The notes beneath the pieces were generated by a model that made no database searches, had not been told where the DNA came from, and was given only the letters and a program-made list of their open reading frames with translations. Shown piece by piece: positions 511 to 64,000 of a DNA stretch of 64,000 nucleotides. Made by a program: the position numbers and the translations under genes. Source of the stretch: Clostridia bacterium (GTDB lineage Bacteria; Bacillota; Clostridia; RGIG6154); the NCBI GenBank assembly GCA_017410375.1, contig JAFQQW010000002.1, positions 1 through 64,000 of the forward strand, written 5' to 3'. Within the stretch, counting starts at the first letter, position 1. Each line of letters opens with the position of its first letter.

Positions 511-525
511 CCCTTGTTTCTCCTT

Positions 526-1326
526 TCACTTTAACGGTTCTTTATCTTTTTTCATGAGGCGGTACAGCAAAACGGCACCAAGTACCGCAGTGAGCAGGGC
601 AACCACCTGTGAAATACGGAAAGGTCCCCAATAAAGACTGTCGGTACGCAGACCCTCAATAAAAAATCTGCCTACACCATACCAGATGAAATATGTAAAG
701 CACACCTGTCCATCCTTTTTCTTGTGCTTGTTCAGCCATATCAGCAGAAAAACACCGCACAGACTCCAGAGACTCTCATACAAAAAGGTGGGATGCACAA
801 ACACTTCGCTTCCACCCGAGGTGTGAAGTTCCATGCGCCAGGGCAGACTTGTTTCTCCGCCGAACGCCTCGCGGTTGACAAAATTCCCCCATCTGCCGAT
901 GGCTTGTCCTAACATAACCCCCGGCACACACACATCAAACAGCTTTTTCCAGTCAATTTTTTTGTATCTGCAATAGGCATACGCCGCAATGCACGCACCG
1001 ATGATGCCACCGTAAACCGCAAGACCGCCCTCCCAGATTTTAAAAACATCCAAAAGATTGTCTGCATAATGCTCAAAGCGGAACGCGCAGTAATAAAGCC
1101 TTGCACCGATGATGCCGGCAGGGGCACCCCACAGTACAACGTCTAAAATGTTATCGGCGGTTAAATTATGCTGTTTAGCAAGATGTGTACACAAAATAAC
1201 CGCTAAAATGATGCCGGTTGCAATCAGTACGCCGTACCAGTATACATCTTTTCCGAATAAATTGAATGCCACGGGGTTGACATTAAAAGAAATGCCAAGC
1301 CCGGGAAATCCGATATAGGTATCCAT
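526..1326 (-). CDS. lgt: prolipoprotein diacylglyceryl transferase
   Basis: Lgt transfers diacylglycerol from phosphatidylglycerol to the lipobox cysteine of prelipoproteins, in the cytoplasmic membrane. The protein has several hydrophobic helices and the family signature, with a GRWGNFVNREAFGG stretch, an upstream GARLYY and a late YGVGRFFIEGLR. I start at the ATG for MDTYIGFPGLG (266 aa, a normal length), because the longer reading frame only adds sequence shadowing the upstream peptidase gene. It begins 1 bp after that gene's stop, so it is translationally linked to the M16 pair. Lipoproteins such as the one at 30559-31248 are its likely substrates. Confidence 0.95.
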   Translation of the reverse strand: MDTYIGFPGLGISFNVNPVAFNLFGKDVYWYGVLIATGIILAVILCTHLAKQHNLTADNILDVVLWGAPAGIIGARLYYCAFRFEHYADNLLDVFKIWEGGLAVYGGIIGACIAAYAYCRYKKIDWKKLFDVCVPGVMLGQAIGRWGNFVNREAFGGETSLPWRMELHTSGGSEVFVHPTFLYESLWSLCGVFLLIWLNKHKKKDGQVCFTYFIWYGVGRFFIEGLRTDSLYWGPFRISQVVALLTAVLGAVLLYRLMKKDKEPLK

Positions 1327-38535: not shown

Positions 38536-38560
38536 AAGAGCCTTTCGGCTCTTTTATTTT
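38529..38560. terminator. bidirectional terminator
   Basis: AAAATAAAAGAGCC and its complement around a TTTC loop. It abuts the stop codon of the 1633-aa gene. Confidence 0.8.
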
Positions 38561-44529: not shown

Positions 44530-44553
44530 AAAATAAAAAAAGGAGCGATGCTT

Positions 44554-47500: not shown

Positions 47501-49080
47501 AGCAACAGCCGAACTACCCCTACGAGGGTCCCGATTACACCTTGGTTTACTGGCATCATATTCCGGTATTCCAGTCCATGCTTGAAGATTTCTTAATCTC
47601 CAGTGCCATTTACCGTTCGGAAGGAAAGTTAGAAATCCCTGCACTCCGTCAGCACGGCTATGCATACTTCCTGACCCAACAGTATGGGCACAAGCCTGCA
47701 AAATTCTATGACGAAGACGGCTTATGGCTGTGGCTGGACAAAGGCGTTATTACCCCCGACAGCGTAAATGTAGACTATGTAATGGGCAGAAAAGACGGCA
47801 AATTTGCAGTTGCTCTGATGAACGAATCCGCATCCGATCTTACCACAAATGTTTCTCTGGACGAAAAGCTCCCCGCGGTTTCGGGTGATGGTGTGCTTTA
47901 TGACAAGGACGGTAACAAATCTGCGCTTGCATTAGGCGACAGACAGTTTACCGTAACCATTCCTGCAAAGAGCATGGTAACCGTTATGCTGAATGTACCG
48001 ACCCTTACTGCACCATCTTATGCATTGGACGAAATCCGCTACACCCTTGACAATCACAAAACTGTAGCAGAACATACCAACGGCTATGGCTATGCATTAC
48101 AGCTTTCTCCTGAAAAATATTATGCATATCTGTATGTAACCGACATGGCAAAAGACATGAAGGCTTTGCATGCGACCTACACCGTAAACGGAAAAACCGA
48201 AACGAGAACCATTTCGGAATATCCCTTTGAAACCATTATTCGGGTAGATGGCAGCGCACCCATTCAGTATACCTTAAAGGCTGAAATGGCAGACGGCAGC
48301 ACCAAAAACTACGGTGGTGGCACATTAGAGCCTCTTCCGCAGGGTGCAGAAACCAATATCGACGGGTTCAAAACCCCCGAGCCTGCCGATTGGGGCAAAA
48401 CAAAAGTTGTTTCGGGTACCTTTATGGGTGTCGGCTCTGCAGGCGGTGTATTCCGTATGGTTGTAGACAACAAGGATATGCCTTTTGCGGTGGAAGCTAA
48501 CAACTTAACCTGCTGTAAGGTTGCCGCAACCGTCACCAACACCGAAACAGGCGAACAGAAGGTTCTTTACACCACTTTAGCGGGCAACGAAATCCGTCCT
48601 ACAAATATTGTTCTTTTAGGACCGCCCACCGAAGAAGTGCCCCTTACCAACTTTAACAAACCCAAATGGGACGTTCAGTTTAACATGTATCCCGTAGGCA
48701 CGCCTGATAAAGACGTGATTGCACCTGAAGTTGACTTTGAAGTGAAACCCGAAGAGCCGGAGCGCGAGCCGGTTGAGCTTAAAGAGCCGCTCACCGTTCC
48801 GCTTCTGGGCATGGGCGTAAACGTGCAGTTCCGCGGTGTGGTTGAATTCAAGAACATTCCCTTTGACATTTATGAAAATGCATTCAAAGGCTATCGGGCA
48901 GAGGTGACCATTACCGAGCTTGCAACCGGCGAGCAAAGAGTTTTGAAGAACGTAATCTTAGGCAACGAAATGCGTTCGACCAACACGGTTATCCTGCTTG
49001 ACTTTACCAAAGAAGTTCCGTCCCAGAATTTCTCTTACGACAAGTATAAGGCAACCATGACCATATATCCCAATAAATAA
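44554..49080 (+). CDS. giant secreted protein, candidate polysaccharide-active enzyme with duplicated C-terminal domain
   Basis: 1508 aa; the second ATG is chosen for its 8-nt spacing to AGGAG. Signal peptide about 1-25 (SASA-Q). Copper-amine-oxidase N-type domain about 30-142 (TLVPLRAIFEALG, TLVPLRFISEAYG), one CBM-like domain about 150-285, a beta-rich region about 300-605, a helical toroid-like region about 620-1060 (EQKYLDAAHDAAKLL, VYWHHIPVFQSMLEDFL), and beta domains to about 1265. The last 240 residues are two copies of a domain with TGEQ-VL, GNE-R-TN and EVP--NF motifs, not seen in the paralogues. No catalytic family recognised. Next to an AraC gene. Confidence 0.75.
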   Translation: MKKLCLLLAVLMILPLFSAIIPASAQENVKVVFNGTPMKFDVPPVILNGRTLVPLRAIFEALGAEVTWDDASETAIGVRRGVRVSVTVDSSAATINGKAVTLDQPAVLMDGRTLVPLRFISEAYGCEVGWDDATQTVSIKAEPAYAAHHINVKMFEELGTWKFSGNMIVGTQTGLEEGQKPEELSQDAVANVYIDTPGKYNLWVRDRDYANNQPGSRFFHIAVDGVRQDKVLGAHGQEGFRWTFVSELDLTEGMHAFALQDTSCFFARCEGFFLTQDLDYTPAEDAEELAKVAVPVSDLDNIPISIYPGWSKREMEDTKTVTIGNDTTKINFYEGIGFRGALVQNEILVKDKNGNFKSVKARNEELGVLMISADKSVFKGYTGSTSEEVGGVTAEQTITLKGETFTAATDSLYLTGVPTWFIPQSVEKLSDTEAVLSFASQNGVELKVTYSFDTVSPDPKVTIDATFTKDGAHSFLLYSGDELTDGSYEQVTAPFLYVKKYVPDTATMVPACYLFTPMATFTVNKDGALLTKGIAMDPQSVPRSVPYPETSPFCLTLRTPTGNLRGQFAAPQFGTEEANFKAGDSYSVSYRIINRFDDWYETYTHVVTDIYDNTDIRENVYGSLNDAIYNLDKLMLDDIYGGWDAKNMGWYNMEAKGVSSQANFMTAVQRYLLTGNEDMLEKRAIPTLANLLSRINAHFCRHDIETTYTDAPTVLAEAPKTGNAAVYAGLYEMSQGRMPFLLNTAVSKKAVGADVDGITAQSAFLRITGEEKYLTQIKANADAYINKTFNPDGSYMNGYFDQAFVFGDYLPKVAAFMYAYEETGEQKYLDAAHDAAKLLLTATWTTGYHNGYGSAPYEIDPAATEALHKIRADNKDSNWFMHGLTQWRLGYPYGVYGLTSENPVKIPAETVKGFQPTLTGFGTEHPVTPAHGNSITMNTWAPFLQRLALYTGDEYLNTQARNALIGRFTNYPGYYQDRYITHQQQPNYPYEGPDYTLVYWHHIPVFQSMLEDFLISSAIYRSEGKLEIPALRQHGYAYFLTQQYGHKPAKFYDEDGLWLWLDKGVITPDSVNVDYVMGRKDGKFAVALMNESASDLTTNVSLDEKLPAVSGDGVLYDKDGNKSALALGDRQFTVTIPAKSMVTVMLNVPTLTAPSYALDEIRYTLDNHKTVAEHTNGYGYALQLSPEKYYAYLYVTDMAKDMKALHATYTVNGKTETRTISEYPFETIIRVDGSAPIQYTLKAEMADGSTKNYGGGTLEPLPQGAETNIDGFKTPEPADWGKTKVVSGTFMGVGSAGGVFRMVVDNKDMPFAVEANNLTCCKVAATVTNTETGEQKVLYTTLAGNEIRPTNIVLLGPPTEEVPLTNFNKPKWDVQFNMYPVGTPDKDVIAPEVDFEVKPEEPEREPVELKEPLTVPLLGMGVNVQFRGVVEFKNIPFDIYENAFKGYRAEVTITELATGEQRVLKNVILGNEMRSTNTVILLDFTKEVPSQNFSYDKYKATMTIYPNK

Positions 49081-50073: not shown

Positions 50074-51015
50074 TCATTTTTTAAATACTATTTGGTCTTT
50101 TTTTGTGCTTTTTACGGTAGAAGAGATGATGTATTTTGGTCTGCCCTTGATTTCTTCATAAATCCGCGCAATATAGTACCCTATAATACCCAGACTGATC
50201 ATGATGATACTACCGATAAAAATAGTGATAATGATGACAGTTGTCATACCCTCAAGGGCTCTGCCTATGATTTTATCTATCAGTGCCCACACACCGAAAA
50301 CAACTGATATGGCAAGCATTACAATGCCCAGAGCCGTTACGATTTGCATAGGTGCGGTTGAGTAAGAGGAAATGTTGGAAACTGCATATTTCACCAGTCC
50401 GCGGGTAGACCATTTTGACTCTCCGTCCACCCGTTCTGCCACATCATACTCAACCGTTGCTTTATGGTAACCCACCCAGTAGGAAATGGCTCTGAAAAAT
50501 CCCCGTTCGGGCATTTTATTAAGCACATCCACCACCTTTCTGTCCAAAAGCTTGAAGTCGGACGAATTTGCCATATCAAAGCCTGCCATGCGGCTGATTG
50601 CCGAATAGAAAAGCTTTGCACCCAGCTTGTGTGCTTTCTTTTCCTGCCCGCGTGTTGTTTTGATGCCTTCCACTATTTCATAGCCCTGCTCCCAAAGACG
50701 GTACATTTCGACTATTTTTTCGGGCGGATGCTGAAGATCGCAGTCAATGACCACGGCACAATCGCCGTTTGCGGCGGCAAGACCTGCAGAGATGGCAGAT
50801 TCTTTGCCGAAATTTCTGGAAAAATGCAGACCTGAAACGTTGTCCTTTTCTTCCGAAAGTGCTTTGATAATCCGAAAAGTCTGATCCTGCGAGCCGTCAT
50901 CCACAAAGATAATTTCGCTGTCAATTCTGTTTTCCGAGAGCAACGCATGTATCGTGTCATATGCACGTCTGATACACTTTTCTTCGTTATAAGCAGGAAT
51001 AATTACCGATAACAT
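50074..51015 (-). CDS. membrane-bound GT2 glycosyltransferase, DPM1/GtrB-like
   Basis: 313 aa. GT-A domain about 1-225: LSVIIPAYNEEKCI, FVDDGSQDQTF, DCDLQHPP (metal motif) and the GFFRAISYWVG region. Two C-terminal membrane helices lie at about 225-285. This architecture transfers a sugar to polyprenyl phosphate, making a lipid-linked donor for a later step outside the membrane. The start is the ATG of MLSVIIP with GGGGGTG upstream. It lies between the two EAL genes in the operon. Confidence 0.88.
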   Translation of the reverse strand: MLSVIIPAYNEEKCIRRAYDTIHALLSENRIDSEIIFVDDGSQDQTFRIIKALSEEKDNVSGLHFSRNFGKESAISAGLAAANGDCAVVIDCDLQHPPEKIVEMYRLWEQGYEIVEGIKTTRGQEKKAHKLGAKLFYSAISRMAGFDMANSSDFKLLDRKVVDVLNKMPERGFFRAISYWVGYHKATVEYDVAERVDGESKWSTRGLVKYAVSNISSYSTAPMQIVTALGIVMLAISVVFGVWALIDKIIGRALEGMTTVIIITIFIGSIIMISLGIIGYYIARIYEEIKGRPKYIISSTVKSTKKDQIVFKK

Positions 51016-51025
51016 AAAACACCCC

Positions 51026-52408
51026 CTACTGTTTGTCAAACAATGCTTCTAATTGTGTAACCGGCATGGGACGGTAGAAATAATAGCCCTGCAGTATGTC
51101 GCACCCTGCCTTTACAACTGTTTTTTTGTGTTCTTCTGTTTCTATACCTTCACAAAGGGTCTTAAACCCTAAGTCATGTGCCGTTCTGATGATATTTTTC
51201 AGAATTACAAATCCCGCCTCTGTGGTCGCATTTTGTGTAATTGCCTTATCGATTTTCACAATGCTGATATCAAAATCAGTTAAATCGCCAAAGCTGGTGT
51301 AGCCCTTGCCGAAGTCGTCTAAGAGTATCAGGATACCCTTTTCCTTCAGACGTGCCAGATTCTGTATCATTATCATCTTTTCCGCTTCGTTCAGGTTTTT
51401 ATCTTCTAAAATTTCAACCGCAATGCAGGAATAATCAATCCCGTATTTTCCTACTACATTTATAATGTTATCCGCAAGATTCGGGTCACAAAGAGTGTAG
51501 CGCGAGAAATTGATTGTGTAGACATACCGGGTGCGGGTTTCCTTATCGCTTGCAATCCATTTGCAGTTTTTTTCAAAGATATAGTAGTCAAACTTTTCAT
51601 TCAGTCCCACATTATTCACTGCCGAAAGGAAATGATAAGGGGTCAGCACCCCTTCGGTTGCAGAATTTAAGCGCGACAGCACCTCTGCACCTATAATTTT
51701 ATCCGTTTTGGCATCCAGCATCGGTTGATACTCCAGAAAAAATTTGTTATTTTCGATTTCATTCTGTATATTGTTTTCAATTTTTATTTTCCGTTCAAAA
51801 GCTTTGCCGTTTGAGCTGTCCCACTGACAATACAGAACTTTTTTATCCGCCGCCATGCTGCAGGCCTGTTTCGCTCTTGCCAGTGCTGTTTTAAAGGATA
51901 CATCCGTTGCAGCCGTCTGATGATAGCCGAAATGTACATGCACCACATTCACCGCACCGTGGCTGATAAACACTTCGTTGATTTCACGGAAGCACTTTTT
52001 GATGTGATTTTCCAGAACCGAAGCTTCGAGAGTATTAAATGCAACAAAATTTTCGTTGCCGTAAAGAGCCATCTCACCGTCTGCCTGCAAACACAAATGG
52101 CTGAACAAAATCTTCTTAAGTTGCGCATACATTCTGTTCACCTTCGACTCCGAATGCAGTCTTTGCATGCTGTCTAAGGATAGCGAAATATATACGAGAG
52201 AACGGTTTTTCCGCATTGCTCCTGATTTTTCAAAATCATTTTCGATTTTACTTATACCGCAAAAGCTTTTCTCGGCTGTTCCTTTGGCTGTTTTTACCGA
52301 TTTAACCGTAAAATACAGCCCGATAATGCCCATTACAAGAAAAACAATTGCAAGCATGGTTATAATCACATAAGGGTATTCAAATATCTGCGATTCAAAA
52401 AAATTCAT
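51026..52408 (-). CDS. membrane EAL-domain protein with a degenerate GGDEF-like region
   Basis: 460 aa. Membrane helix about 13-35, a GGDEF-like region about 65-200 whose signature has become GNENF (ALYGNENFVAF), and an EAL domain about 215-455. The phosphodiesterase residues look intact: GAEVLSR (EVL variant), NFSRYTL, VEILEDKN, LLDDFGKGYTSF, VKIDKA, CEGIETEEH and LQGYYFYRP. The GGDEF part is probably inactive and may bind a regulator. It starts 14 bp after the preceding glycosyltransferase stop. Confidence 0.85.
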   Translation of the reverse strand: MNFFESQIFEYPYVIITMLAIVFLVMGIIGLYFTVKSVKTAKGTAEKSFCGISKIENDFEKSGAMRKNRSLVYISLSLDSMQRLHSESKVNRMYAQLKKILFSHLCLQADGEMALYGNENFVAFNTLEASVLENHIKKCFREINEVFISHGAVNVVHVHFGYHQTAATDVSFKTALARAKQACSMAADKKVLYCQWDSSNGKAFERKIKIENNIQNEIENNKFFLEYQPMLDAKTDKIIGAEVLSRLNSATEGVLTPYHFLSAVNNVGLNEKFDYYIFEKNCKWIASDKETRTRYVYTINFSRYTLCDPNLADNIINVVGKYGIDYSCIAVEILEDKNLNEAEKMIMIQNLARLKEKGILILLDDFGKGYTSFGDLTDFDISIVKIDKAITQNATTEAGFVILKNIIRTAHDLGFKTLCEGIETEEHKKTVVKAGCDILQGYYFYRPMPVTQLEALFDKQ

Positions 52409-52422
52409 TTTGTAGGCACCTG

Positions 52423-53490
52423 CTATCTCTCTTCAAAAATTGGGAACTCTTTTGTTCCTGCCGTCTGTTTAAGACCTGTCTCGTTTGCTTTTTGCATACA
52501 CTTTTCAATATCCTGCCTTGCCGTTTGTTTTCTTCTGTACACTTCTTGAATCAGAAATACAGGGTTAAAGGAAAGCATGGCTTTTATCACATCCGCCTTT
52601 GGCACACCGCACCGCTTGTATTCTGCAAGAATTTCAAGCAACGCGTAGTTTATATCCCTTTTGGCAAGGCTTTTTTTTGTTTTGGCTCTCAGCCATTTTG
52701 CATATTCTGAAAATTTTGTGATATCGGCATTTTCCTTAAAATAGATTCCGCTGATATAAAAAGCTTGCATCTGCCCGTCCATACCCTCTGCCATTGCTTC
52801 GTAATAGCTTTGCTCCACTTTAAGCACTTCGGTGTGCTGTCGCTCTTGGGTGGTGCTGGTGATTTGCTTATCATGAAGCCGATAAATCAGAAGGCATTCG
52901 GGCAAAATCTCCATTTTCTGCTTTTCCATTGCCATTCTTGTCCAAAGTTCCAAGTCCTCGGTACAGGTAAGTGTAGTATCATACGGAAGCTTTTTCATGA
53001 CCTCTGTTTTTGCAAACACGCCCGGGTGCAGAATGGGGTTTGCCACCAAAAGCATGGCACGAATTGCCTCGTTGTCACACCGACCGCCTGCTCCGCCCGA
53101 CATATATACGCCGTTTTTTAAGGTCATAAATCGGCAGGACGACAACGCGATATCGCTGTGTGCCTCCATAAATGCATATTGCTTTGCAAGTCTGTCGGTC
53201 AAACAGATGTCATCTGCATCCATGCGCGCGATGTACTTGCCCTTTGCAAGCGATATGGCTTTGTTTAAGGATGCGGGAAGTCTTAAATTCACTTCATTGG
53301 TATGCACCCTGATTCTTTCGTCTTTTTGCGAAAAATCCTGAAGGATTTGGGCGGTAGAATCTGCAGAGCAATCATTAATCACAATCAGCTCCCAGTTTTT
53401 AAAGGTCTGCTGTATAACACTTTCAATCGCTTCTTTCAGATACGCTTCGCCGTTATACACGCTCATGATGACCGATACAGCCGGATTCAT
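52423..53490 (-). CDS. GT2 family glycosyltransferase
   Basis: 355 aa, cytoplasmic GT-A enzyme: VSVIMSVYNGEAYLKEAI, VINDCSADST, ARMDADD (metal motif) and TCTEDLELWTRMA (acceptor/base region). The C-terminal 100 residues are helical and lysine-rich. It adds one sugar in polysaccharide repeat assembly; donor and linkage cannot be read. Only 7 bp separate it from the upstream transferase. Confidence 0.88.
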   Translation of the reverse strand: MNPAVSVIMSVYNGEAYLKEAIESVIQQTFKNWELIVINDCSADSTAQILQDFSQKDERIRVHTNEVNLRLPASLNKAISLAKGKYIARMDADDICLTDRLAKQYAFMEAHSDIALSSCRFMTLKNGVYMSGGAGGRCDNEAIRAMLLVANPILHPGVFAKTEVMKKLPYDTTLTCTEDLELWTRMAMEKQKMEILPECLLIYRLHDKQITSTTQERQHTEVLKVEQSYYEAMAEGMDGQMQAFYISGIYFKENADITKFSEYAKWLRAKTKKSLAKRDINYALLEILAEYKRCGVPKADVIKAMLSFNPVFLIQEVYRRKQTARQDIEKCMQKANETGLKQTAGTKEFPIFEER

Positions 53491-53497
53491 AGACTTT

Positions 53498-54517
53498 TCA
53501 CCCTTTCCTTAAGATTTTTTTGATGTTTTTACATGCATTTAAGAAATAAAACGCAATTTTGTAAAGGTTTTTCTGCATCAGAAATACAGAAATTTTGCTT
53601 TTAACAGATATGTTTTCAAACTCTGCCTGCGGAATCAGTTTGGCATGCATCGAATTTTTGACACTTTCACGGATGGCTCTGATGCTTTTAAAATGATTCC
53701 CTTCTGCTGCCGATGCCAATATTGTAAAACACATGAAGCAGGAATACCTGCTTTTTTGTTTTTCAAAATCAGAAAGCTTTACCGCATCGCTTTTTTCAAT
53801 TTCGCGGATTACGTTTTCCACAAGTGCAATTTGCTTTGTATTGAATTCTTTGGACAAGGAATCCTCCCGCACCGTGTAAAGATACGCGGTCTTTTTGCTG
53901 ATATACACACGCTCTGCGTGCAGATAGCAGGGCACGGTACAGCACAAATCCTCCCCTAAAGATATTTTTTCGTTTACCGCAAGCTGATGGGGTGTGAGCA
54001 AGGTTCGTTTTACCGCTTTGCCCGACAGATAATAGGAAACATGATTCATATCCTTGTCCATCAAAAGACGCGGATAAATGTATTGTTTGATTTTATCTTT
54101 TGTGTATAAGCCTTCATCCAGACCATCGTCCGTAAGGTTTACCGTCTGTCCGTTTTTTACCCAGCGGTAGGCAAAGGATACCATGTCACAGTCTGTGTCA
54201 CAGATGATTTTTTTGGCACACTCTAATGTATCCGCTTCTATCAGGTCGTCTGAATCCAAGTTGAACACATATTCCCCCGAAGCGACCTGTATGCCTGCCC
54301 TTCTGGCACTTGCAAGACCGCCGTTGGACTTGTGAATCACCTTCACGCGTGCATCTTTCGCTTTATAGCTGTCACAGATTGCAGGACAGCTGTCAGGAGA
54401 GCCGTCGTCCACTAAAATCAGCTCAAAATCAGAAAAGGTCTGATTCAAAACACTCTCAATGGCACTTTGTAAATATTTTTCAACCTTATAGACGGGTACA
54501 ATTACCGAAAAAAACAT
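53498..54517 (-). CDS. GT2 family glycosyltransferase
   Basis: 339 aa. GT-A motifs are FFSVIVPVYKVEKYL, LVDDGSPDSCPAICD, NGGLASARRAGI and NLDSDDL (metal motif). This is the EpsJ/CapI-like group of capsule and exopolysaccharide transferases. GGAG lies 8 nt upstream of the ATG. Part of the compact operon, 10 bp after the previous gene. Confidence 0.88.
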   Translation of the reverse strand: MFFSVIVPVYKVEKYLQSAIESVLNQTFSDFELILVDDGSPDSCPAICDSYKAKDARVKVIHKSNGGLASARRAGIQVASGEYVFNLDSDDLIEADTLECAKKIICDTDCDMVSFAYRWVKNGQTVNLTDDGLDEGLYTKDKIKQYIYPRLLMDKDMNHVSYYLSGKAVKRTLLTPHQLAVNEKISLGEDLCCTVPCYLHAERVYISKKTAYLYTVREDSLSKEFNTKQIALVENVIREIEKSDAVKLSDFEKQKSRYSCFMCFTILASAAEGNHFKSIRAIRESVKNSMHAKLIPQAEFENISVKSKISVFLMQKNLYKIAFYFLNACKNIKKILRKG

Positions 54518-54527
54518 AAATTTTCTC

Positions 54528-55586
54528 CTATTTGCTTCTTAAGCCGACCAGAATTTTCAGCAAAAGAAACATTCTGTATTTCATGCCGTATGCAAACACG
54601 CGCTGTTTAAGCGGAAGTGTGCCTAAGGGGTAAGTTTTAAGGGTGCTTACCGTTTGCGGATGGGTGCAAACTGCTTTTAATCGTTTCTTTAAGTCGGAAA
54701 ACTTTATTTTGTTTTCTGCCGCATACAGAATTTCCTGCGCACAAATGACTCTGCACATTGCCTGCCAGAATCTGTTTATGTAAATCCGATATTCCTCGGG
54801 CTTGATGTCTTTTTCAAATCGCCTTTCGACCTCTTTTATAAATACAAGGCTTTTTTCAAAGCGGTCTTTTTTATAGGCTTTGGAAATGGAGGAGGCGTTT
54901 CTGCAGTAGTGATAAAATGCTTTGCGGATACCGGTGGCTTTTCGGATGCAGGCGATGTAATCCACCATGAAAAGTGCATCCTCTGACAGCATTTCCCGCT
55001 CGGATTGAAAGGACAGATTATTTTGCTCGATAATCGCTCTGCGGAACAGATTTTTCCAGATGCTCATGCCGTATTTGCTGTCATCTGCATCCTCAGGCGT
55101 TGCCCCCACAATACCCATGCGGAGTTTTTTTAAGCTTTCTTCGGTATCAAAATGTGTATCTTCTTCAAAGTAGGTTTTCCGTTCGCATTCGCCCTTTTCG
55201 CTGAACATATTGCCGTCTACGAACAGCACGCCGGACATCACCAAATCAGAGCTGTACTGCTCCGCTTTGTCGCAAAGGGTCTGAAACATTTCGGGTGCCA
55301 CAAAATCGTCCGAATCCAAAAAACCGATATACTCACCCGTTGCCATCTTCAGCGCTGTATTTCTGGCATACCCTGCACCTTCGTTTTCCTTATGTATCAC
55401 CTTTATACGCGCATCCCTTTCCGCTTTTTCTTTACAGATTGCAAGGGAATTGTCGGTGGATGCATCGTCCACTAAGATAATCTCTATCTCCTGAAGCGTC
55501 TGCTTCTGCAGGGAGCTTATACATCTTTCAAGATATTTTTCTGCATTATAAACGGGAACAATAATGCTTACCTTGGGCTGTGGCAA
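54528..55586 (-). CDS. GT2 family glycosyltransferase
   Basis: 352 aa. GT-A motifs are VSIIVPVYNAEKYLERCI, LVDDASTDNS, NEGAGYARNTAL and FLDSDDF (metal motif), related to its downstream neighbour. I start at a TTG (reading MPQPKVSII) with AGAGGTG about 6 nt upstream; a GTG three codons earlier overlaps the upstream stop as GTGA and is an alternative. The frame extends much further upstream, but that part only shadows the GT4 gene. Confidence 0.82.
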   Translation of the reverse strand: MPQPKVSIIVPVYNAEKYLERCISSLQKQTLQEIEIILVDDASTDNSLAICKEKAERDARIKVIHKENEGAGYARNTALKMATGEYIGFLDSDDFVAPEMFQTLCDKAEQYSSDLVMSGVLFVDGNMFSEKGECERKTYFEEDTHFDTEESLKKLRMGIVGATPEDADDSKYGMSIWKNLFRRAIIEQNNLSFQSEREMLSEDALFMVDYIACIRKATGIRKAFYHYCRNASSISKAYKKDRFEKSLVFIKEVERRFEKDIKPEEYRIYINRFWQAMCRVICAQEILYAAENKIKFSDLKKRLKAVCTHPQTVSTLKTYPLGTLPLKQRVFAYGMKYRMFLLLKILVGLRSK

Positions 55587-55591
55587 TTTTT

Positions 55592-56800
55592 TCACCTCTT
55601 GGCTAATTTTTCGTATTCTTTTACTAAAATATCTGCGTAATCTTCTACACTTAAGATATTGTCTTTTTCCTGCCTGCAGTTTTCTTTTAATGCAGTATAG
55701 TACTCCTCGTTTTCGAGGGTTTCTTTGATTTTTAAAGCAATGCCTTCGGGCGTAGGCTCGGTTACAAGCGTACCTGTTACCCCGTCTTTTACAAGCTCTG
55801 CCATTCCGCCGCTGTTCATGGTTATCACCGGAACGCCCATGCAATGTGCCTCTAAAATAGAGAGCGGACAGTTTTCATAGCACACCGAGGGCAAAAGTAA
55901 GATTTTGGCGTTACCCATCAGTGTCTTTAAGCTTTCCCCGGTCAGAAAGCCTGCAAGAAAGATGTTCGAAATTCCGTTTAACAAATCCGCATCCGGTCCG
56001 CTTCCTGCCACCACAAACCGGTATTCGGGAAGAAGCTTTGCCGTGCCTGCAATATTTTCAATCCCCTTTTCTTTGGACAGTCTGCCGACATACACAATGT
56101 AGTTGTCTGTTTTTTGATTCTCCGAAGAAAATTTTTCTTTGTTGATAAAATTATGTATGGTTTTGGTTTTGCCTTTATAATAGGCTTTTGCGGACAAAAG
56201 CTTGTTTTCTAAAAAATGGCTGGGACAAACAAACAAATCCACCTTTTTATAGGTTTTCAAGAATGCATAAAGCTTTGCTTCGATAACCCCTAAGATGCTT
56301 TTGATTTTAGAGCCGTGAATGCATTTGTTTTTTATGCAGTTGAAATGTGAACCATTTACACATTTTTCGCAAGAGATGTTTTTATCGAAGTTATAAAGCA
56401 GGTGGTTGGGACAAATCATCTGATAGTCATGCACCGTCTGCACCAGCGGAATGCCTTTCTTTTTTACCCCGTAAATGATAGAGGGAGTAAGCTGAAAGTT
56501 TATGTTGTTCATATGCACGATGTCAGGCTTAAAATCCTCAATCACCTGCATAATTTTTTTCTTTGCTTCAAAGGAATAAATAATTTTAAAGGGATACAAA
56601 AATCTGGCTAAGCCTTTCCCGTGAAAGTCCATGTTCTGTGTGTATAAGCCTTTTTTGTTGCCTACTGTATTCTGCGTATCGAGCATGCCGAAAAACTGCA
56701 CCTCATGCCCCATTTTTTCAAGATGCTCTGCTAAGTACAGCATATAGCTTTCACTGCCCCCGCGAGGATAGAGAAACTTATTGACCATTAAAATTTTCAT
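55592..56800 (-). CDS. GT4 family glycosyltransferase
   Basis: 402 aa, GT-B fold retaining transferase. N-terminal KFLYPRGGSESYMLYLAEHL, central YVGRLSKEKGIENIAG (start of the donor domain), LLPSVCYENCPLSILEAHCMG (the E-x7-E region) and GGMAELVKDG. A CEKCVNGSHFNC cysteine motif at about 139-150 suggests a small metal-binding insert. It acts in the cytoplasm on the lipid-linked oligosaccharide. Confidence 0.88.
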   Translation of the reverse strand: MKILMVNKFLYPRGGSESYMLYLAEHLEKMGHEVQFFGMLDTQNTVGNKKGLYTQNMDFHGKGLARFLYPFKIIYSFEAKKKIMQVIEDFKPDIVHMNNINFQLTPSIIYGVKKKGIPLVQTVHDYQMICPNHLLYNFDKNISCEKCVNGSHFNCIKNKCIHGSKIKSILGVIEAKLYAFLKTYKKVDLFVCPSHFLENKLLSAKAYYKGKTKTIHNFINKEKFSSENQKTDNYIVYVGRLSKEKGIENIAGTAKLLPEYRFVVAGSGPDADLLNGISNIFLAGFLTGESLKTLMGNAKILLLPSVCYENCPLSILEAHCMGVPVITMNSGGMAELVKDGVTGTLVTEPTPEGIALKIKETLENEEYYTALKENCRQEKDNILSVEDYADILVKEYEKLAKR

Positions 56801-56809
56801 AACCGTGCT

Positions 56810-58099
56810 TCACTTTCTTTTTTGATTCTCTTTGGAAATATACCCGAACATTTTCTTTTCCCGCCGACGCACATTTTCCTCAAAGGAGTGCCCCATCATC
56901 AGTATAGCAAGAACGCCCGTAAGCAACGGATAGTTCATGGTATTGTCGGTGGTGGATACAATGATTAAGTAAAGGATGAGGATAAACGAAATAATGGCAT
57001 TCTCCACATTTCCTTTTCTTCCGAAATACCATATTCGTACCAGCGTCATGGACAGGAGCCATATAATATAACCCCAAAAGCCAAGATCGATAAAGTGCTG
57101 CAGAAAGTCGTTGTGCACCGATGCAACCCCGACGGACATAAAGGTGTTTAACTGATAGGTTAAAAAGCCGATACCGTTTCCTAAAAAGCCCGGGGAGAAT
57201 TCATAAAATTTATCCACCGCATTATAAATTTCCACACGTCCGCTGGTGTTAATGCCTGCTTTTTCCAGCAGTTCAAAGGCATCCATTTTAATCAGCGCGA
57301 TGTATGCAATCAGCAAACCGATGACAACAATTGTAAAAAACGTAACCAGTCCGCTTGCGGTTTTGAGGTTGTAGCGGGCAATGAATTTTAAAAGATAGCC
57401 AAACAAAAGTGCAATGGCGATAGCGATAATGGCAATACGCTTAAATGCCGATAAAAAGCAGAAAAGGCTTAAGGAAAGCAGGATAAAGTAAAGTATGTTT
57501 TTTTGGGGCTTGTACAGCATATAAATCAGGTACGCCCCAAGACAAAAGGCAAGCTCGTGAATTTCCGCCTGCACGATAATATCGCCCGTTACCCCTGCAA
57601 AGGTGGTAACAAGGGTTATAAATTCGCTGAAATAGCTCGCAAGCCCGTTTTTTGCAATAACGGTTAAGATCATTAAGATGTTGGCAATCAGAATTGCAAC
57701 CAGGTTCATCCAGATGCCTTTTTTGCCGAAAATATAAAGCAGAGCGCCTGCCCCCAATGCCATGGAAAGCATGTTTGCATATATAAAAGAGCTGGAAAGA
57801 CCTCTGGAAATGACACCCACATCCACTTTTTCGGTAAACCATATAAAAAGGGAAACCAAAGTGGTCACCAGAAGCGGAATGCTGTAAATGACCGCATCTG
57901 AAACCGCGGTAAAGCCCCTTGCAATATTGGGCTTGTATAAAAACAGCAAAGTTGCCGAGCCGAACAGAACAAGGGAAAAGGCGTGGCGGTAAGTGATATG
58001 AAGACCCACGTCGATGTATTCGTTTAAAAAATAATACATCAGAATGGCTACCACCATAAAATAAAATTCTTTTGCGCGTTCAAGAATTTTATTTTCCAC
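56810..58099 (-). CDS. O-antigen polymerase/ligase family membrane protein
   Basis: 429 aa with about ten to twelve membrane helices and the large external loop typical of Wzy/WaaL proteins: SGRVEIYNAVDKFY, PGFLGNGIGF and SVHNDFLQHFIDLGFWG. It probably polymerises exported repeat units outside the membrane, with the adjacent Wzz-like proteins setting chain length. The start is GTG, with AAGGAGGG upstream. No Wzx flippase is in the window. Confidence 0.85.
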   Translation of the reverse strand: MENKILERAKEFYFMVVAILMYYFLNEYIDVGLHITYRHAFSLVLFGSATLLFLYKPNIARGFTAVSDAVIYSIPLLVTTLVSLFIWFTEKVDVGVISRGLSSSFIYANMLSMALGAGALLYIFGKKGIWMNLVAILIANILMILTVIAKNGLASYFSEFITLVTTFAGVTGDIIVQAEIHELAFCLGAYLIYMLYKPQKNILYFILLSLSLFCFLSAFKRIAIIAIAIALLFGYLLKFIARYNLKTASGLVTFFTIVVIGLLIAYIALIKMDAFELLEKAGINTSGRVEIYNAVDKFYEFSPGFLGNGIGFLTYQLNTFMSVGVASVHNDFLQHFIDLGFWGYIIWLLSMTLVRIWYFGRKGNVENAIISFILILYLIIVSTTDNTMNYPLLTGVLAILMMGHSFEENVRRREKKMFGYISKENQKRK

Positions 58100-58115: not shown

Positions 58116-59975
58116 TTATAGATTTTCTCTTACATCCGAAGTATAGTTCTTTTTATTCGAGATGGCTTCCGAAAGCAGTTTTCTTGCCGTCTTGTTTTCC
58201 TTAAAGGTTTCGGCAATACCGATTTTGTACTCGATTACAACGTTTCTGTGTTCTTCTCTTTCGTCCAGTCTTAAGCGGAAGAGGCGCATGATATCTTCAA
58301 CCGTGATGTAATCCGATTCCTCGGTCAGCATCACAAAGCTTCCGTTGCCGTTATAAATGTACTCGGTTTTGGATTTGCCGAAAGTTTCTTTGATGTAGCT
58401 TGTGAACATTTTGATGATTTCATCACCCACATCCCTTGAGTATTCGCTGTTGATATGCGCCAGATTGGCTATATCCAGCATACAGTATACCACACCGTCA
58501 TCGAGAAGCTTTTTGTCCTTGGATTTTAAGTATTTATCAAAGTATGCCCTGTTGTAAAAGCCGGTGAGATGGTCTGTGTAGAAAATGTAGTTGATGATAT
58601 CGCCTGCTCTGCCCAGCACGATTGCACCGCCACAGCAGAGAATCATCAGGAAGAAGAACGCAATGGCAGTATACAGCATTACATTTACGCTTTCCCGTAC
58701 AGATGCCGAGGACAGTACCGAAATGTAGCTTGCGCCTAAGTATTTGTTATATTCGTCATTGGTTTTCATGGTGGTGTCATAAAGTGCAGTCAAGTCCTTT
58801 AAAAGGGTATCAATCTGACTTTCCACCTCGGCTCTTACCTTTGCATACTGCGCATTACCAAGCTCCGAGCAGGTCATGGAAGACCCTTCGCAGGCACCGC
58901 CGCAAGCACCGGTACAGCTTGTAAAGGTATTTAAAATATAGGTGCAGTATGCCGAATCAATCACCGCATGCTCTATACTTTCATTATGGTCTCTCCAGCT
59001 GTAAACCAGTTCGTCATAAGTAACGGTCTGGTCACCCACATACTCTTCAAGGTTTCGCTCATGCAGATTGTCTAAAATGTATTCGTAGGTAATGTTTGTA
59101 TTGCCCGAATCCCGCATTTTGGTGACATACGCATCAATAACCGTAACAACATCTTCCACAAGGCTTGCATTTTTTTCGTTGGAAATGTTATTGTTGTCTA
59201 TTCTTGTGGTGTAGTCCGAAACCAGAACCGATTTGTTTTTGGTAATCTGATATTTGTAAATGGTAGAGAACAGCGAGGAAACCTTTACCTGTCTTAAATA
59301 ATTAAAATCCTCTGCCAGCTCGGAAAAGGACACACCTGTTTCGGTGGCTCTGTAGTAATTGTTCTGTTCCATGCGCTGATACAAGGTAGAAAGGGTATTA
59401 TCGATGCTTGTATCAATCAGCTCCATCATTTCGATGTAGTCGTAATCGTTTTTGTTGATGTTTTCAATGGTGTTGTTTGCATGGGCAACATTTACATATT
59501 TCTGGCTGAACTGTTCAAAATACACGTCCAGGATTTCGTCTAAGACGGTTCTTGCAAAATCGGGACCTTCTCCGCTGGTTGCCGCAAAGGAAACGATAAA
59601 GGTGCTGGGTTCGTAGATGTATTCCTCGCCCTCTTCAAGCTTTGCGTCCTTTTGTGCAACCTTATCCGCATCTTCGATGGGGGTAATATCAATTCTGGAA
59701 ATTAAGCTGTCCACCGAGTAAATGCCTGTAAGTCCCATTTTATCCACAACCTTGGACATAACGGCGGAGGATTTGATTTCGTTTACATCCAGTTTTTCTC
59801 CCGTGGGGGCTAAGCCCTGCTCTGCCTGTGCATCGTTATAATGAATAACCTCCGATGCGATATAGGTATTGGAAGTGGAAAGCTTAAAATATATCGCATA
59901 GGTTGCCAGAAGGCAAAAAATGACAATGAAAGGCAAAAGCTTTTTTAAATATCTTAATATTTGAAAATTTTTCAT
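58116..59975 (-). CDS. Wzz-like chain-length protein fused to a degenerate GGDEF domain
   Basis: 619 aa. Membrane helix about 14-32, a large external region about 33-430 with the Wzz-type start (TYIASEVIHYNDA) and a long coiled part, a second helix about 432-455, then a cytoplasmic GGDEF domain about 465-615 (YTDHLTGFYNRAYFD, HINSEYSRDVGDEII). The GGDEF signature itself is GNGSF (YNGNGSFVML), so cyclase activity is unlikely. Five cysteines cluster outside (C344, C354, C358, C362, C369). I infer that cyclic-di-GMP or a partner protein controls polymer length or export through the inner domain. AAAGGAGGG precedes the ATG. Confidence 0.82.
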   Translation of the reverse strand: MKNFQILRYLKKLLPFIVIFCLLATYAIYFKLSTSNTYIASEVIHYNDAQAEQGLAPTGEKLDVNEIKSSAVMSKVVDKMGLTGIYSVDSLISRIDITPIEDADKVAQKDAKLEEGEEYIYEPSTFIVSFAATSGEGPDFARTVLDEILDVYFEQFSQKYVNVAHANNTIENINKNDYDYIEMMELIDTSIDNTLSTLYQRMEQNNYYRATETGVSFSELAEDFNYLRQVKVSSLFSTIYKYQITKNKSVLVSDYTTRIDNNNISNEKNASLVEDVVTVIDAYVTKMRDSGNTNITYEYILDNLHERNLEEYVGDQTVTYDELVYSWRDHNESIEHAVIDSAYCTYILNTFTSCTGACGGACEGSSMTCSELGNAQYAKVRAEVESQIDTLLKDLTALYDTTMKTNDEYNKYLGASYISVLSSASVRESVNVMLYTAIAFFFLMILCCGGAIVLGRAGDIINYIFYTDHLTGFYNRAYFDKYLKSKDKKLLDDGVVYCMLDIANLAHINSEYSRDVGDEIIKMFTSYIKETFGKSKTEYIYNGNGSFVMLTEESDYITVEDIMRLFRLRLDEREEHRNVVIEYKIGIAETFKENKTARKLLSEAISNKKNYTSDVRENL

Positions 59976-59989: not shown

Positions 59990-61345
59990 TTACGCCTTTT
60001 TAGGAAATTTTTTGGAAATCATATACAGCACAAGTGTTATATATGCAAATGCCGCAAACACTACAAGCGACTTTAATTCGCTCATAAGCGAAACACCATA
60101 GATGCTGACTGCAATACACTGGTTCATTTTATGTCTGGAATATTCTCTGCCCGCTGTAATGGCTTCTGTCTCAAAATCTTTTACACTTTCGTAAACAGAC
60201 TCTATCAGCGCATCTACCTCAGAAAAATTCTGTGCTTGCGGACTGTTTTCGGAAATTTTTCCCATTATCAGATTGTTGTCCATGATTTCTTTTTCATTGG
60301 CAGCAACCTGATTGCTGAATTCAGTCGCCATAACAGACAGCTCGTCCACACCGACTTTGGTTCTGCCCATGTAATATTTCCCCTCCTGGTCCCAGGTGGG
60401 CACTAGTACTACGCGGGTCATTTCCTCGCTGTACATGGCGATTGCATCGTTACAAAGTCTGTAGGACGCCTCGTTTTTCTGACGGTCAAAATCCACATTG
60501 ATATTGCGGTATGTCAGTCTGTCAATATATCCTGCCTTATCCCGCGCAATTCCGTTTTGCAGAATCAGGGATTTTAAATTCTGATTGATTTGCGTTTCTT
60601 TAAACTGATGCACTTTACCTGCAATAGAGTTAAAGGTGCTGCCGCTTTCGGTCACAAAGCTGGGATTTTTCTCTGCCATGCCATAAAGGTAATCTAAAAT
60701 TGCCTGGGCTTCCATGCCGAGATAAGAAACAATGTCCATATATTCCATCTTTGAAAAATCGGGTTTTTCGGGATCTAATTTAAAATTATCGGTATATTTT
60801 TCGATATAGTATTCCTTATAAGCCGAGGTGATGAGCTTAATCACATTTTCAGAGTCCAGATGGTCTGTGTCCTTGGAAGCATGGTATTCTACCGCAAACT
60901 CGGTGGAGATGTGGTACTGGGTTTCGTCTCCGACACCCCCCTGCACGCAAGGATAAACCACCAGGCAGTTTTTAAGCTGTTTGACCGTAACATCCTCCAG
61001 CGCACCTTTTTGTATGGCTCTTTCCACCACCTCGTCGCTGATGATTTCTGCCATATTGTATCTGGTTCCGTTGGAATTGAGTGCCTGGGATGCTTCGGAA
61101 TAGTTCAGCGATACAATGGCATGCACAGATTTTTTAAGCTCGAAATGATTGAAAAATCCGTACACCATGGTGGACACAAAGCACACCAGAATCATCCATG
61201 CACTTAAATATTCTGCGGTTTTAAAAATCTGTGTCCGTTCTGTGCGATTTACATTTTTCAAACGCAACAGTATGGTTACTGCAGATACTGCAAACAACAC
61301 GAAAAACACAAGAATGATTAATTTTTGAAGTAAATCCGTTAACAT
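59990..61345 (-). CDS. Wzz-like polysaccharide chain-length/co-polymerase protein with extra N-terminal helix
   Basis: 451 aa from the ATG that follows GGGAGGGTGG; an ATG seven codons earlier overlaps the upstream stop and is less likely. Helices lie at about 5-25 and 44-65, followed by an external domain of about 350 residues and a final helix about 418-440. The general plan resembles Wzz/PCP proteins but adds one helix and has no tyrosine kinase. It sits next to the Wzz-GGDEF gene, and the two may form one complex. Confidence 0.6.
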   Translation of the reverse strand: MLTDLLQKLIILVFFVLFAVSAVTILLRLKNVNRTERTQIFKTAEYLSAWMILVCFVSTMVYGFFNHFELKKSVHAIVSLNYSEASQALNSNGTRYNMAEIISDEVVERAIQKGALEDVTVKQLKNCLVVYPCVQGGVGDETQYHISTEFAVEYHASKDTDHLDSENVIKLITSAYKEYYIEKYTDNFKLDPEKPDFSKMEYMDIVSYLGMEAQAILDYLYGMAEKNPSFVTESGSTFNSIAGKVHQFKETQINQNLKSLILQNGIARDKAGYIDRLTYRNINVDFDRQKNEASYRLCNDAIAMYSEEMTRVVLVPTWDQEGKYYMGRTKVGVDELSVMATEFSNQVAANEKEIMDNNLIMGKISENSPQAQNFSEVDALIESVYESVKDFETEAITAGREYSRHKMNQCIAVSIYGVSLMSELKSLVVFAAFAYITLVLYMISKKFPKKA

Positions 61346-61365
61346 ATTCTGCCACCCTCCCAACA

Positions 61366-62580
61366 TTAAAATTTGTTGATATCAATAATAACCAGCTCCG
61401 GCTGATTGTTGATGCGAAGCACATTGGAATTTTCCAAGCCCGCGCTTACAATCATGGGCTTGCCTGCGGCATCGTATCTGCCATAAACAAAGCATCCGCT
61501 CCGTTCGGGGAACAAGCCTCCCTCCTTGGTGTATAAAGGCCCGAGCACGGGAACGCGTACCACACCGCCGTGGGTATGTCCGCAAACCATTAAATCGCCC
61601 CAGAAATCCGGTGTAAACTCTTCAAATATAAATGGCTCGTGTACCGCTGTGATTTTCAGATGGTCGGGATTTTCTTCCAGGTAGCTTAAAAATGCTTTTT
61701 CCGAGTAAGACCAGAAGCAGGACGGATTGGAGGTTAAAACCCCGTATATGTCGACATCCATGGTTTTGACTCTGATGGTATCCATTTCGTTTTTCAAAAC
61801 GTTTATACCTGCCTCTTCAAGCTTTTTCTCAAAGGAATCGTCAAGCTTTAAAAGTGCTGTTTCGTCGCGGTTTTCTTTGTTAAAGCCAAACTTTTTGTCC
61901 AGAGCTTTTTCATTCAGCGGGAAGTCGAAGATGCCTTCTACCTCGTTGTTGCCATACACATAATAGGTCGGTGCAAGCTTTGCCAGCTCTTTGCATAAGG
62001 CAACCGCTTCGTCCGCATCTTCTTTTACGGAATCCACCATGTCCCCTGTGCAGATAATCAGATCGGGTTTGAGTTCTTTTACGCGCGCTGACAGTCTTTT
62101 GTTGTTTTTGCCGTAAGAAGCACCGTGCAAATCGGAAAGCTGTACAACCCTTACACAGCTGTCCACCTTGATACTGCTTGTGCTGTAAAAGGTTTCCCTG
62201 AAATTTCTGTTACCGATATAGTTGCAAAGCACCAGAATAACCAGCGTTGCAATACACACAAAAACCATACCGATTGCAAAGAATTTAAATGCCTTAATAT
62301 TCTTTTTAGTTTTTGGGCTGAGGGTATTGTACGCGGTCTGCTTCGCAATTTTTACGGATTTCCCCACGCCGATAACCGAATCAATACACACCTGCAGAGT
62401 TTTCCAGCATTCCTTTTTGAACCGTTTAACATCCTCTGCACCATGGTAGGTCACCAGGACCTGCTTTTCATCCACATCTTCAATGACAAAGGTATCTGCC
62501 CACTTTTCATAAAGGGCATCGGGTGCGATCTCTTTAAAAAGCTCTTTTACTCTTTCCTGATATTTTTCTGTTTTTTCCAT
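61366..62580 (-). CDS. membrane-anchored metallophosphoesterase
   Basis: 404 aa. N-terminal cytoplasmic part about 1-85, a membrane helix about 92-115, and an external calcineurin-like phosphoesterase domain about 135-400 with RVVQLSDLHGASYG, ICTGDMVDS, YGNNEVEG and VCGHTHGGVVRVP metal motifs. It resembles YkuE/YaeI-type enzymes. The N-terminal part (YEKWADTFVIEDVDEKQV, FKKECWKTLQ) recalls the small DnaA N-terminal domain, a weak similarity. It could remove phosphate from lipid carriers during polysaccharide synthesis. The ATG is chosen over a GTG three codons upstream. Confidence 0.82.
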   Translation of the reverse strand: MEKTEKYQERVKELFKEIAPDALYEKWADTFVIEDVDEKQVLVTYHGAEDVKRFKKECWKTLQVCIDSVIGVGKSVKIAKQTAYNTLSPKTKKNIKAFKFFAIGMVFVCIATLVILVLCNYIGNRNFRETFYSTSSIKVDSCVRVVQLSDLHGASYGKNNKRLSARVKELKPDLIICTGDMVDSVKEDADEAVALCKELAKLAPTYYVYGNNEVEGIFDFPLNEKALDKKFGFNKENRDETALLKLDDSFEKKLEEAGINVLKNEMDTIRVKTMDVDIYGVLTSNPSCFWSYSEKAFLSYLEENPDHLKITAVHEPFIFEEFTPDFWGDLMVCGHTHGGVVRVPVLGPLYTKEGGLFPERSGCFVYGRYDAAGKPMIVSAGLENSNVLRINNQPELVIIDINKF

Positions 62581-62616
62581 AGTTTTCACTTTCCTTATCC
62601 AAAAAAGCCTATACTT

Positions 62617-63735
62617 TTATTTCTGATAAAGCCTGCAGGTTGCTTTTACAACCTCCTGCCAGCTGTATTTGTTTAAAACAAATGTATCTGCACCATTCTT
62701 TAGCAGCTCTTTCTGCCTGCTGTCGGTACATAAAAGCTTTAATTTATCCGCCAAATCCGCCACATCGCTTTTTTTAAAGTACATGGCTTTATCCTCTGCA
62801 ACCGCTGTGTTTTCGGGAATATCCGAGCACAAAAGGGCATTGCCGTAAGAAAGTGCCTCCAAAAGGCAAAGGGACATACCTTCTAAGTCTGAGGGCAATA
62901 CGTTTAAGTAGGCATTGGAATAAATTTCATTTAACGTATCCCCCGACACAAAGCCCGTAAAGATAATATTCGGATTCCCTTTTGCCTTTTCCTTAAGCAT
63001 ACGCACATACGCATCGGTATCGCTGGTATCCCCTGCAATCAAAAGCTTTTTGTCCGTTTCAAGGCTCTTATACGCATCAATAAGATAATGAATCCCCTTT
63101 TCCGCGGTCAGTCTTGAAACGATTGCTATGTATTCGTCTTTTTTCAAGCCGTATTTTTCGGTGATGATTTCAGCTTCTTTTTTTTCAGGACGGCTGATGC
63201 CGTTATGAATGATGGTGGTTTCCCGCCCGTAGGTTTCCTTAAAATAATCCTGCGCCGCCTGACTTAAAACAATGACCTCATCTGCATATTTTGCCAGAAT
63301 TTTTTCGCCGAATTTAATATATTTGGAGGCAAAGCCCTTGCCCCATTTTTCTCTCTGCCAATCCAGCCCATGCACGGTGGCAACGCATTTTTTCCCGAAA
63401 AGCTTTGGAATCCAGAGCGCCGCACAGGGACCTTCTGCGTGGAAATGTATTACATCGTAATTGCTAAAGGAAGCCGAAATTGCCGCCGTAAAGGATGCAA
63501 TCATTGCGGCAAAGCCCCTGACGTTTAGTGTCCATGCATTTTTCAGCTTTACGCCCTTATACATTTTGTTTTTTACCGTTCCCACATATTCGTTTTCCAC
63601 TTTATCCGAGGAGCGGTTATAGCAGGTAACCTCATGCCCCATTTCCACAAGCATGGGACAAAGGGTGGTCAGCACATTTTCGATGCCGCCACGTCTTGAG
63701 GGAACAACCTTATGCCCAATCATAGCAATTTTCAT
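62617..63735 (-). CDS. GT4 family glycosyltransferase
   Basis: 372 aa, GT-B fold: KIAMIGHKVVPSRRGGIENVL at the N-terminus, CVATVHGLDWQREKWGKG, YIAIVSRLTAEKGIHYLIDAY (donor domain) and LPSDLEGMSLCLLEALSYG (E-x7-E region). It is similar to enzymes adding the second sugar after the initiating phosphotransferase. GGAGTG supports the ATG. It follows the sugar transferase by 15 bp. Confidence 0.88.
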   Translation of the reverse strand: MKIAMIGHKVVPSRRGGIENVLTTLCPMLVEMGHEVTCYNRSSDKVENEYVGTVKNKMYKGVKLKNAWTLNVRGFAAMIASFTAAISASFSNYDVIHFHAEGPCAALWIPKLFGKKCVATVHGLDWQREKWGKGFASKYIKFGEKILAKYADEVIVLSQAAQDYFKETYGRETTIIHNGISRPEKKEAEIITEKYGLKKDEYIAIVSRLTAEKGIHYLIDAYKSLETDKKLLIAGDTSDTDAYVRMLKEKAKGNPNIIFTGFVSGDTLNEIYSNAYLNVLPSDLEGMSLCLLEALSYGNALLCSDIPENTAVAEDKAMYFKKSDVADLADKLKLLCTDSRQKELLKNGADTFVLNKYSWQEVVKATCRLYQK

Positions 63736-63750
63736 ATTTTTCACTCCAAC

Positions 63751-64000
63751 TTACCGCCCGGTCGCCGTAAGCATGACAAGCGGTGTTTTCAGCATAATTT
63801 TCAAATCATTAAGATATGTTCTGGTTTGTATGTATTCGATATCCATTTCCACCCACTGTTCAAAGGGGATGTCGTTTCTGTTTTTGGAAATCTGCCAGGT
63901 GCAGGTAAGTCCCGGGGTAACCAGCAGACGAAGACGCTGGTAATCGGTATAATACTTTACCTCTCTCGGCAGCGGCGGACGCGGACCTACCAGGGTCATG
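63751..64000 (-). CDS. initiating sugar transferase, C-terminal part (cut by window edge)
   Basis: About 83 codons of a bacterial sugar transferase (polyprenyl glycosylphosphotransferase, WcaJ/EpsL-like), the enzyme that starts repeat-unit synthesis by loading a sugar phosphate on undecaprenyl phosphate. The end signature is clear: LVGPRPPLPREV, RLLVTPGLTCTWQI and EMDIEYI. The N-terminal part lies beyond the window. It marks the upstream end of the visible exopolysaccharide operon. Confidence 0.88.
   Translation of the reverse strand, partial: MTLVGPRPPLPREVKYYTDYQRLRLLVTPGLTCTWQISKNRNDIPFEQWVEMDIEYIQTRTYLNDLKIMLKTPLVMLTATGR

Follow-up and report, generated by a model that had tools for sequence, protein, structure and literature searches.

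The window analysed here (64,000 nucleotides, positions 1 to 64,000 of contig JAFQQW010000002.1 from a Clostridia bacterium) encodes a polysaccharide co-polymerase (PCP) fused to a GGDEF domain that is catalytically dead; a diguanylate cyclase and two EAL phosphodiesterases are encoded in the same operon. The reading we prefer, to which we give an even chance, is that this protein is a co-polymerase whose dead GGDEF domain links its assembly to the operon's own c-di-GMP circuit, either by binding a nucleotide or by contact with the cyclase. The parts are known; it is their combination, with a regulatory logic that is conserved and testable, that we have not found described.

Domain architecture and modelled fold

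The first-pass annotation of this DNA had proposed that two membrane helices flank an external Wzz-like region, and the structural models bear this out with helices at residues 2-34 and 432-461 and fold matches to Wzc and KpsE. GGDEF is the sole Pfam domain in the protein (PF00990, residues 466-604, E 9e-15, 55 bits against a cut-off of 23.8); the window protein has no match to the Wzz profile PF02706, which does match the same N-terminal stretch in five distant relatives, below cut-off (E 9e-5 to 6e-3). As a first full-length model (pLDDT 72) left the PCP fold uncertain, residues 1-462 were modelled separately with 24 sequences (pLDDT 82, pTM 0.58), giving the two helices already named, strands at 37-46, 95-100, 125-133 and 418-428, and long helices between them. 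Foldseek returned eight matches to this model at E ≤0.001, all of them Wzc and occupying ranks 1-8 (best E 4e-6), and via structural realignment ranks 1-17 were all Wzc or KpsE (Z 11.4-13.8), the best Z being 13.8 for Wzc, 12.2 for KpsE and about 10 for WzzE and FepE. Middling Z values arise by chance for helical proteins, and here the PCP family groups above the unrelated rows. On the evidence of these models, residues 1-462 have the predicted fold of a polysaccharide co-polymerase (Wzz/Wzc/KpsE).

A cytoplasmic GGDEF fold carrying DHLTGFYNRAYF and a GNGSF signature had likewise been read from the sequence, and both are present. Residues 464-612 match the fold of cyclases, with a Z of up to 14.9 to DgcR over 145 residues at an rmsd of 2.9, and in the full-length model a continuous helix (432-471) joins the second transmembrane helix (TM2) to this domain. 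The PCP-1 and PCP-2 subfamilies carry a proline-rich motif just before or at TM2. Proline is absent from residues 410-455, so the fusion has no such motif before TM2, and by its sequence it is not filed here as a classical PCP-1 or PCP-2. The external part also contains four cysteines spaced C-x3-C-x3-C-x6-C (354, 358, 362, 369), which are invariant in close relatives, are not seen in distant ones and possibly form disulphides or a metal site.

The gene immediately upstream (59990..61366) encodes a second co-polymerase-like protein, related to the PCP part of the fusion by profile-profile comparison (probability 99.8, E 2e-28, 402 columns) and present in 32 of the 33 related loci described below.

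Loss of catalytic residues and conservation of the domain

Alignment with cyclases shows both catalytic acids of the signature to be replaced (G545 and S546 in GNGSF), and the earlier description of the signature as dead is correct. Across 42 distinct sequences the signature reads GNGSF in 33, GNGNF in two, GSDQF in three, GVGQF in three and GGKQF in one; the first two forms comprise all 35 close relatives, and the others belong to distant relatives, where the metal-binding Asp is replaced by K, R or T. At least one catalytic acid is missing from every one of the 42, and only the three GSDQF members keep one, on which ground an active cyclase was rejected. The RxxD inhibitory site (I-site) ahead of the signature is also absent from all 42, so classical I-site binding of c-di-GMP is not supported, a classical I-site receptor of the PelD/YdaK/BcsE kind was rejected, and any binding of c-di-GMP would need another site.

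Aligning the window protein with 25 close relatives of 71-90% identity gave median dN/dS values of about 0.075 (GGDEF domain) and 0.061 (external domain), which are approximate because synonymous distances approach saturation. Although its synonymous codons vary, the NGNG(S/N)F motif does not change in any of these 26 sequences. N509 and D518 are also invariant (26/26), and we take these two residues to align with guanine-contacting positions of PleD-type cyclases. The close and distant branches lost their catalytic residues differently, but the fold, GD and YNGxxxF are common to both. In the degenerate GGDEF-EAL protein encoded nearby, which is also less conserved overall than the fusion, the corresponding motif (LYGxxxF) varies freely among orthologues. 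The invariance of the GNGSF loop is therefore not just the behaviour of any dead motif in this operon, and the comparison argues that the loop itself does something. By these measures the domain is maintained and is not decaying.

The operon, its spread and the c-di-GMP inventory of the genome

The operon comprises 20 genes on one strand, separated by gaps of -22 to +35 bp, over 23 kb from position 49126 to contig base 72346 (Table 1); the Wzx-like, Wzy-like, initiating-transferase and glycosyltransferase names rest on sequence reading together with conserved gene order. Orthologues of the operon's EAL proteins retain the EAL catalytic motifs; strict EAL patterns missed some variants and incomplete copies. 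The N-terminal degenerate GGDEF-like region of the protein at 51026-52408 reads YGNENF and drifts among orthologues. No RxxD product-inhibition site is present in the operon cyclase (contig 70046-72346) or in any of its orthologues for which the signature was read. Close relatives, as well as several distant loci (L054, L055, L155), have a metallophosphoesterase gene next to the PCP pair, which suggests a functional link between this gene and the pair. Elsewhere in the window there are very long open reading frames at 22457-27886 (1809 aa), 38559-43460 (1633 aa) and 44548-49080 (1510 aa).

Table 1. Features of the fusion protein and of its operon (window positions unless marked as contig positions)
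Feature	Position	Strand	Basis or remark
Membrane-anchored EAL phosphodiesterase, 308 aa	49126..50052	(-)	EAL E 4e-59; last gene of the operon
Dolichol-phosphate-type family 2 glycosyltransferase-like	50074..51039	(-)	Sequence reading, related loci
Degenerate GGDEF-like region + EAL phosphodiesterase, 460 aa	51026..52408	(-)	EAL E 9e-57; EAL residues intact
Family 2 glycosyltransferase-like	52423..53490	(-)	Sequence reading, related loci
Family 2 glycosyltransferase-like	53498..54517	(-)	Sequence reading, related loci
Family 2 glycosyltransferase-like	54528..55556	(-)	Start uncertain, ORF opens at 55844
Family 4 glycosyltransferase-like	55592..56800	(-)	Sequence reading; conserved position
Wzy-like polymerase / O-antigen ligase family membrane protein	56810..58099	(-)	Sequence reading, related loci
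PCP-GGDEF fusion, 619 aa	58116..59975	(-)	ORF fills the interval exactly
Parts of the fusion: TM1 2-34; external co-polymerase domain 37-428; TM2 432-461; degenerate GGDEF 464-612			
Degenerate GGDEF domain, fusion residues 464-612	58140..58586	(-)	Pfam E 9e-15; structural Z to 14.9 vs DgcR
GNGSF codons, residues 543-547	58335..58349	(-)	Sequence; invariance in relatives
Partner co-polymerase-like protein without GGDEF, 458 aa	59990..61366	(-)	Profile-profile homology to the PCP part of the fusion
Metallophosphoesterase-like membrane protein	61366..62589	(-)	Sequence reading and Monoglobus annotation
Family 4 glycosyltransferase-like	62617..63744	(-)	Sequence reading, related loci
Initiating sugar-phosphate transferase, truncated at the window edge	63751..64000	(-)	
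Operon beyond the window: YdjC-like, GtrII-like, GT32, Wzx-like, acetyltransferase, GtrA-like, diguanylate cyclase	to contig 72346		
Diguanylate cyclase, 766 aa	contig 70046-72346		Intact GGDEF; outside the window

A search for Wzz-GGDEF fusions had been proposed as a check; 33 related loci encode the same protein, and distant fusions have the same domain order. The cluster recurs in 33 other metagenome-assembled genomes (MAGs) of gut Clostridia, nearly all from ruminants, with essentially the same gene order as far as the contigs reach; the exceptions are a few genes moved or absent, for example the cyclase and the last EAL gene. Chance is excluded by these 33 loci, which belong to other species, and by dN/dS values of about 0.06-0.08 in both large domains. 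In the ten other genomes of the same class that could be compared for both proteins, the fusion is 77-88% identical to that of the window against 63-74% for rpoB, and the flanks have no synteny to those of the window, the few matches outside the cluster being weak or scattered. Because the cluster is more alike than rpoB and its flanks are unrelated, the simplest reading is that the whole cluster, with sharp edges, moved by horizontal transfer; the relatives are MAGs, and binning errors could affect this reading.

Distant relatives (~30% identity) keep the two-gene pair in other loci, with or without the adjoining metallophosphoesterase, and one distant locus (L060) has a PCP pair without any GGDEF, so that an older PCP pair either gained the GGDEF domain or lost it. 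Viral contigs gave no relative, and the plasmid collection gave one partial match and one distant, nearly full-length relative on a 176-kb record labelled Monoglobus pectinilyticus plasmid 19. The distant PCP pair on this record (L155:16568-20643, NZ_OY725743.1) has a GGDEF protein of 880 aa, longer than that of the window, with an O-antigen ligase family gene annotated beside the pair, and a similar protein of genome G152 (L053) has a long low-complexity tail after its GGDEF domain. A phylum-wide search restricted to the best three candidates per genome, and swamped by ordinary GGDEF domains, found no full-length fusion outside the class of the window.

A profile search of the window's genome (2.77 Mb, 96% complete) found two GGDEF and two EAL matches, all within the operon, and no PilZ match; in another genome carrying the cluster (G181) every GGDEF and EAL match is likewise inside it. 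The Rfam search of the window's contig gave no family at the gathering threshold. Since the GGDEF and EAL matches all lie in the operon, with no PilZ and no Rfam match, the c-di-GMP circuit of the operon needs a reader, for which the dead GGDEF domain is, among the domain types searched, the obvious candidate; a reader of a wholly unfamiliar type could also lie elsewhere in the genome. The first-pass annotation had suggested a receptor of c-di-GMP or a nucleotide that sets polymer length, and the c-di-GMP idea survives in part: the operon's own cyclase and two phosphodiesterases, the only such genes found in the genome, favour it, but the missing RxxD tells against it in its classical form. 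Its other proposal, that the domain replaces the tyrosine kinase usually paired with Wzz, holds for this locus only, as the operon has no tyrosine kinase gene but the genome does have a canonical Wzz-kinase pair on another contig. That pair (contig C40, L125:7235-8683), with a PHP-type protein nearby, includes the only TIGR01007 kinase match of the genome above cut-off.

Proposed coupling, alternatives and known systems

Under the reading we prefer, the dead GGDEF domain would occupy the cytoplasmic place where a tyrosine kinase sits or docks in kinase-type co-polymerases, and the fusion and its partner would form an assembly that surrounds the Wzy polymerase in a Wzx/Wzy pathway. The operon cyclase would make c-di-GMP and the two EAL enzymes would remove it, and the dead domain would couple this circuit, via the helix continuing from TM2, to co-polymerase assembly and so to polymerisation. 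It might do so with a guanine nucleotide (c-di-GMP or GTP) bound in what is left of the active site, or with the cyclase's GGDEF domain as its pairing partner; in either case the nucleotide or partner state would set how the PCP pair oligomerises, and through this the output of Wzy. In cyclases the GGDEF fold functions as a pair with nucleotide bound. In this scheme a complex, the binding of nucleotide and an effect on polymer length are inferred. The remnant active site is a candidate nucleotide site because the guanine positions are kept, and c-di-GMP is favoured as the ligand because the cyclase and phosphodiesterases are in the operon; the binding could be weak, since neither catalytic acid is left and distant members have another residue in place of the metal Asp. 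The structural matches include PDB 3qyy, whose title refers to a novel mode of interaction between a GGDEF domain and c-di-GMP, and this title suggests that other modes of binding exist.

The main rival is a role as a pure scaffold, in which the dead domain would serve assembly or dimerisation and steer PCP oligomerisation through protein contacts, without nucleotide. It fits almost as well as c-di-GMP binding, and we regard it as possible while on the unlikely side. It would account for the loss of the catalytic acids and the I-site while fold and loop are conserved; the pair at L060, which has no GGDEF, suggests that the PCP core may work without this domain, and EcpK offers a precedent for a catalytically dead cytoplasmic partner of a PCP (PMC12004946). 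A scaffold would, however, leave unexplained a cyclase and two phosphodiesterases travelling in the same operon, and N509 and D518, guanine-contact positions by alignment, are invariant in 26/26 sequences. It is improbable that the domain reads GTP or (p)ppGpp instead of c-di-GMP, as a nucleotide or energy gauge gating polymerisation: the kept guanine-contact positions and the absent I-site would suit such a reader, and the PDB holds PleD structures with ppGpp and pppGpp (9g85, 9g86), but the operon has a complete c-di-GMP turnover set and the metal-coordinating acids are lost. That the domain is what remains of a once active cyclase joined to the PCP, now decaying and without a role, is very improbable. 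Although the two branches lost their catalytic residues differently (GNGSF vs GSDQF/GVGQF/GGKQF), a vestigial domain was rejected on motif invariance and on dN/dS (about 0.075), which means strong purifying selection; at least 35 sequences show no decay, and the distant-branch fusions keep the domain order. Least probable of all is residual or altered cyclase activity despite GNGSF; one report describes the non-canonical AGDEF motif of VCA0965 as active (PMC3974145), but AGDEF keeps the acidic positions that are both lost here (G, S), and the operon already has an intact GGDEF cyclase.

Extending the preferred coupling, we tentatively suggest a wider reading, itself somewhat doubtful, in which the fusion represents a phosphorylation-independent branch of co-polymerases whose dead GGDEF domain gates oligomerisation by c-di-GMP or GTP at the remnant site, on a laterally moving 23-kb island that unites cyclase, phosphodiesterases, reader and target and would provide post-translational control of Wzx/Wzy by c-di-GMP in genomes without other GGDEF or EAL genes. 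That c-di-GMP directly controls exopolysaccharide (EPS) machines is established for systems of the synthase type, and a 2025 paper describes the post-translational control of Wzx/Wzy pathways as incompletely understood, contrasting it with c-di-GMP control of synthases (PMC12802240). A PCP fused to a dead GGDEF domain, beside genes that make and destroy c-di-GMP, renders the question of Wzx/Wzy control directly testable, and it hints that c-di-GMP may directly control this type of slime production. Because the operon appears to move as a unit and holds all the GGDEF and EAL genes found in two genomes, it may be a portable second-messenger circuit with a built-in output.

Our search of the open literature, which covered licensed papers, found no description of a fusion between Wzz or another co-polymerase and GGDEF, and the sole paper naming both domains concerns two separate proteins. 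PelD, YdaK and BcsE are c-di-GMP receptors of EPS systems that use the RxxD site of a dead GGDEF domain (PMC8461298, PMC7064775). Like the fusion they tie a dead GGDEF domain to an EPS system, YdaK also with a cyclase partner, but the RxxD that they use is absent from the fusion and none of them is joined to a co-polymerase. The systems of PelD and BcsE are of the synthase type (Pel, cellulose), and that of YdaK is for a putative EPS. Alg44 of the alginate system is, like the fusion, a co-polymerase protein joined to a c-di-GMP-related cytoplasmic domain (PMC8461298). That domain is PilZ, unlike the GGDEF of the fusion, and the pathway is of the synthase type. We take Alg44 not to have the Wzz fold.

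In architecture the fusion is close to the PCP-2 systems Wzc and CpsC-CpsD, which also have an external alpha/beta domain, large and of the same fold, between two transmembrane helices, and a cytoplasmic regulatory domain after TM2; as read from sequence, the operon of the fusion would likewise be of the Wzx/Wzy type. The fusion differs in having GGDEF where they have a P-loop tyrosine kinase, in the absence of a kinase gene from the operon and of a proline-rich motif before TM2, and in an identity of only 10-12% in structural alignment. In kinase-type co-polymerases, cytoplasmic phosphorylation cycles drive PCP assembly and disassembly, and for EcpK, a tyrosine pseudokinase and proposed scaffold of the PCP EpsV in Myxococcus xanthus, an equivalent role without phosphorylation has been proposed (PMC12004946). 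EpsV-EcpK resembles the fusion in that the PCP of a Wzx/Wzy pathway, putative for the fusion, has a cytoplasmic partner without catalytic activity, but there the partner is a separate pseudokinase, whereas here it is a fused pseudo-cyclase in an operon with c-di-GMP enzymes. The fusion also suggests that the cytoplasmic kinase of co-polymerases is exchangeable for another kind of regulatory domain.
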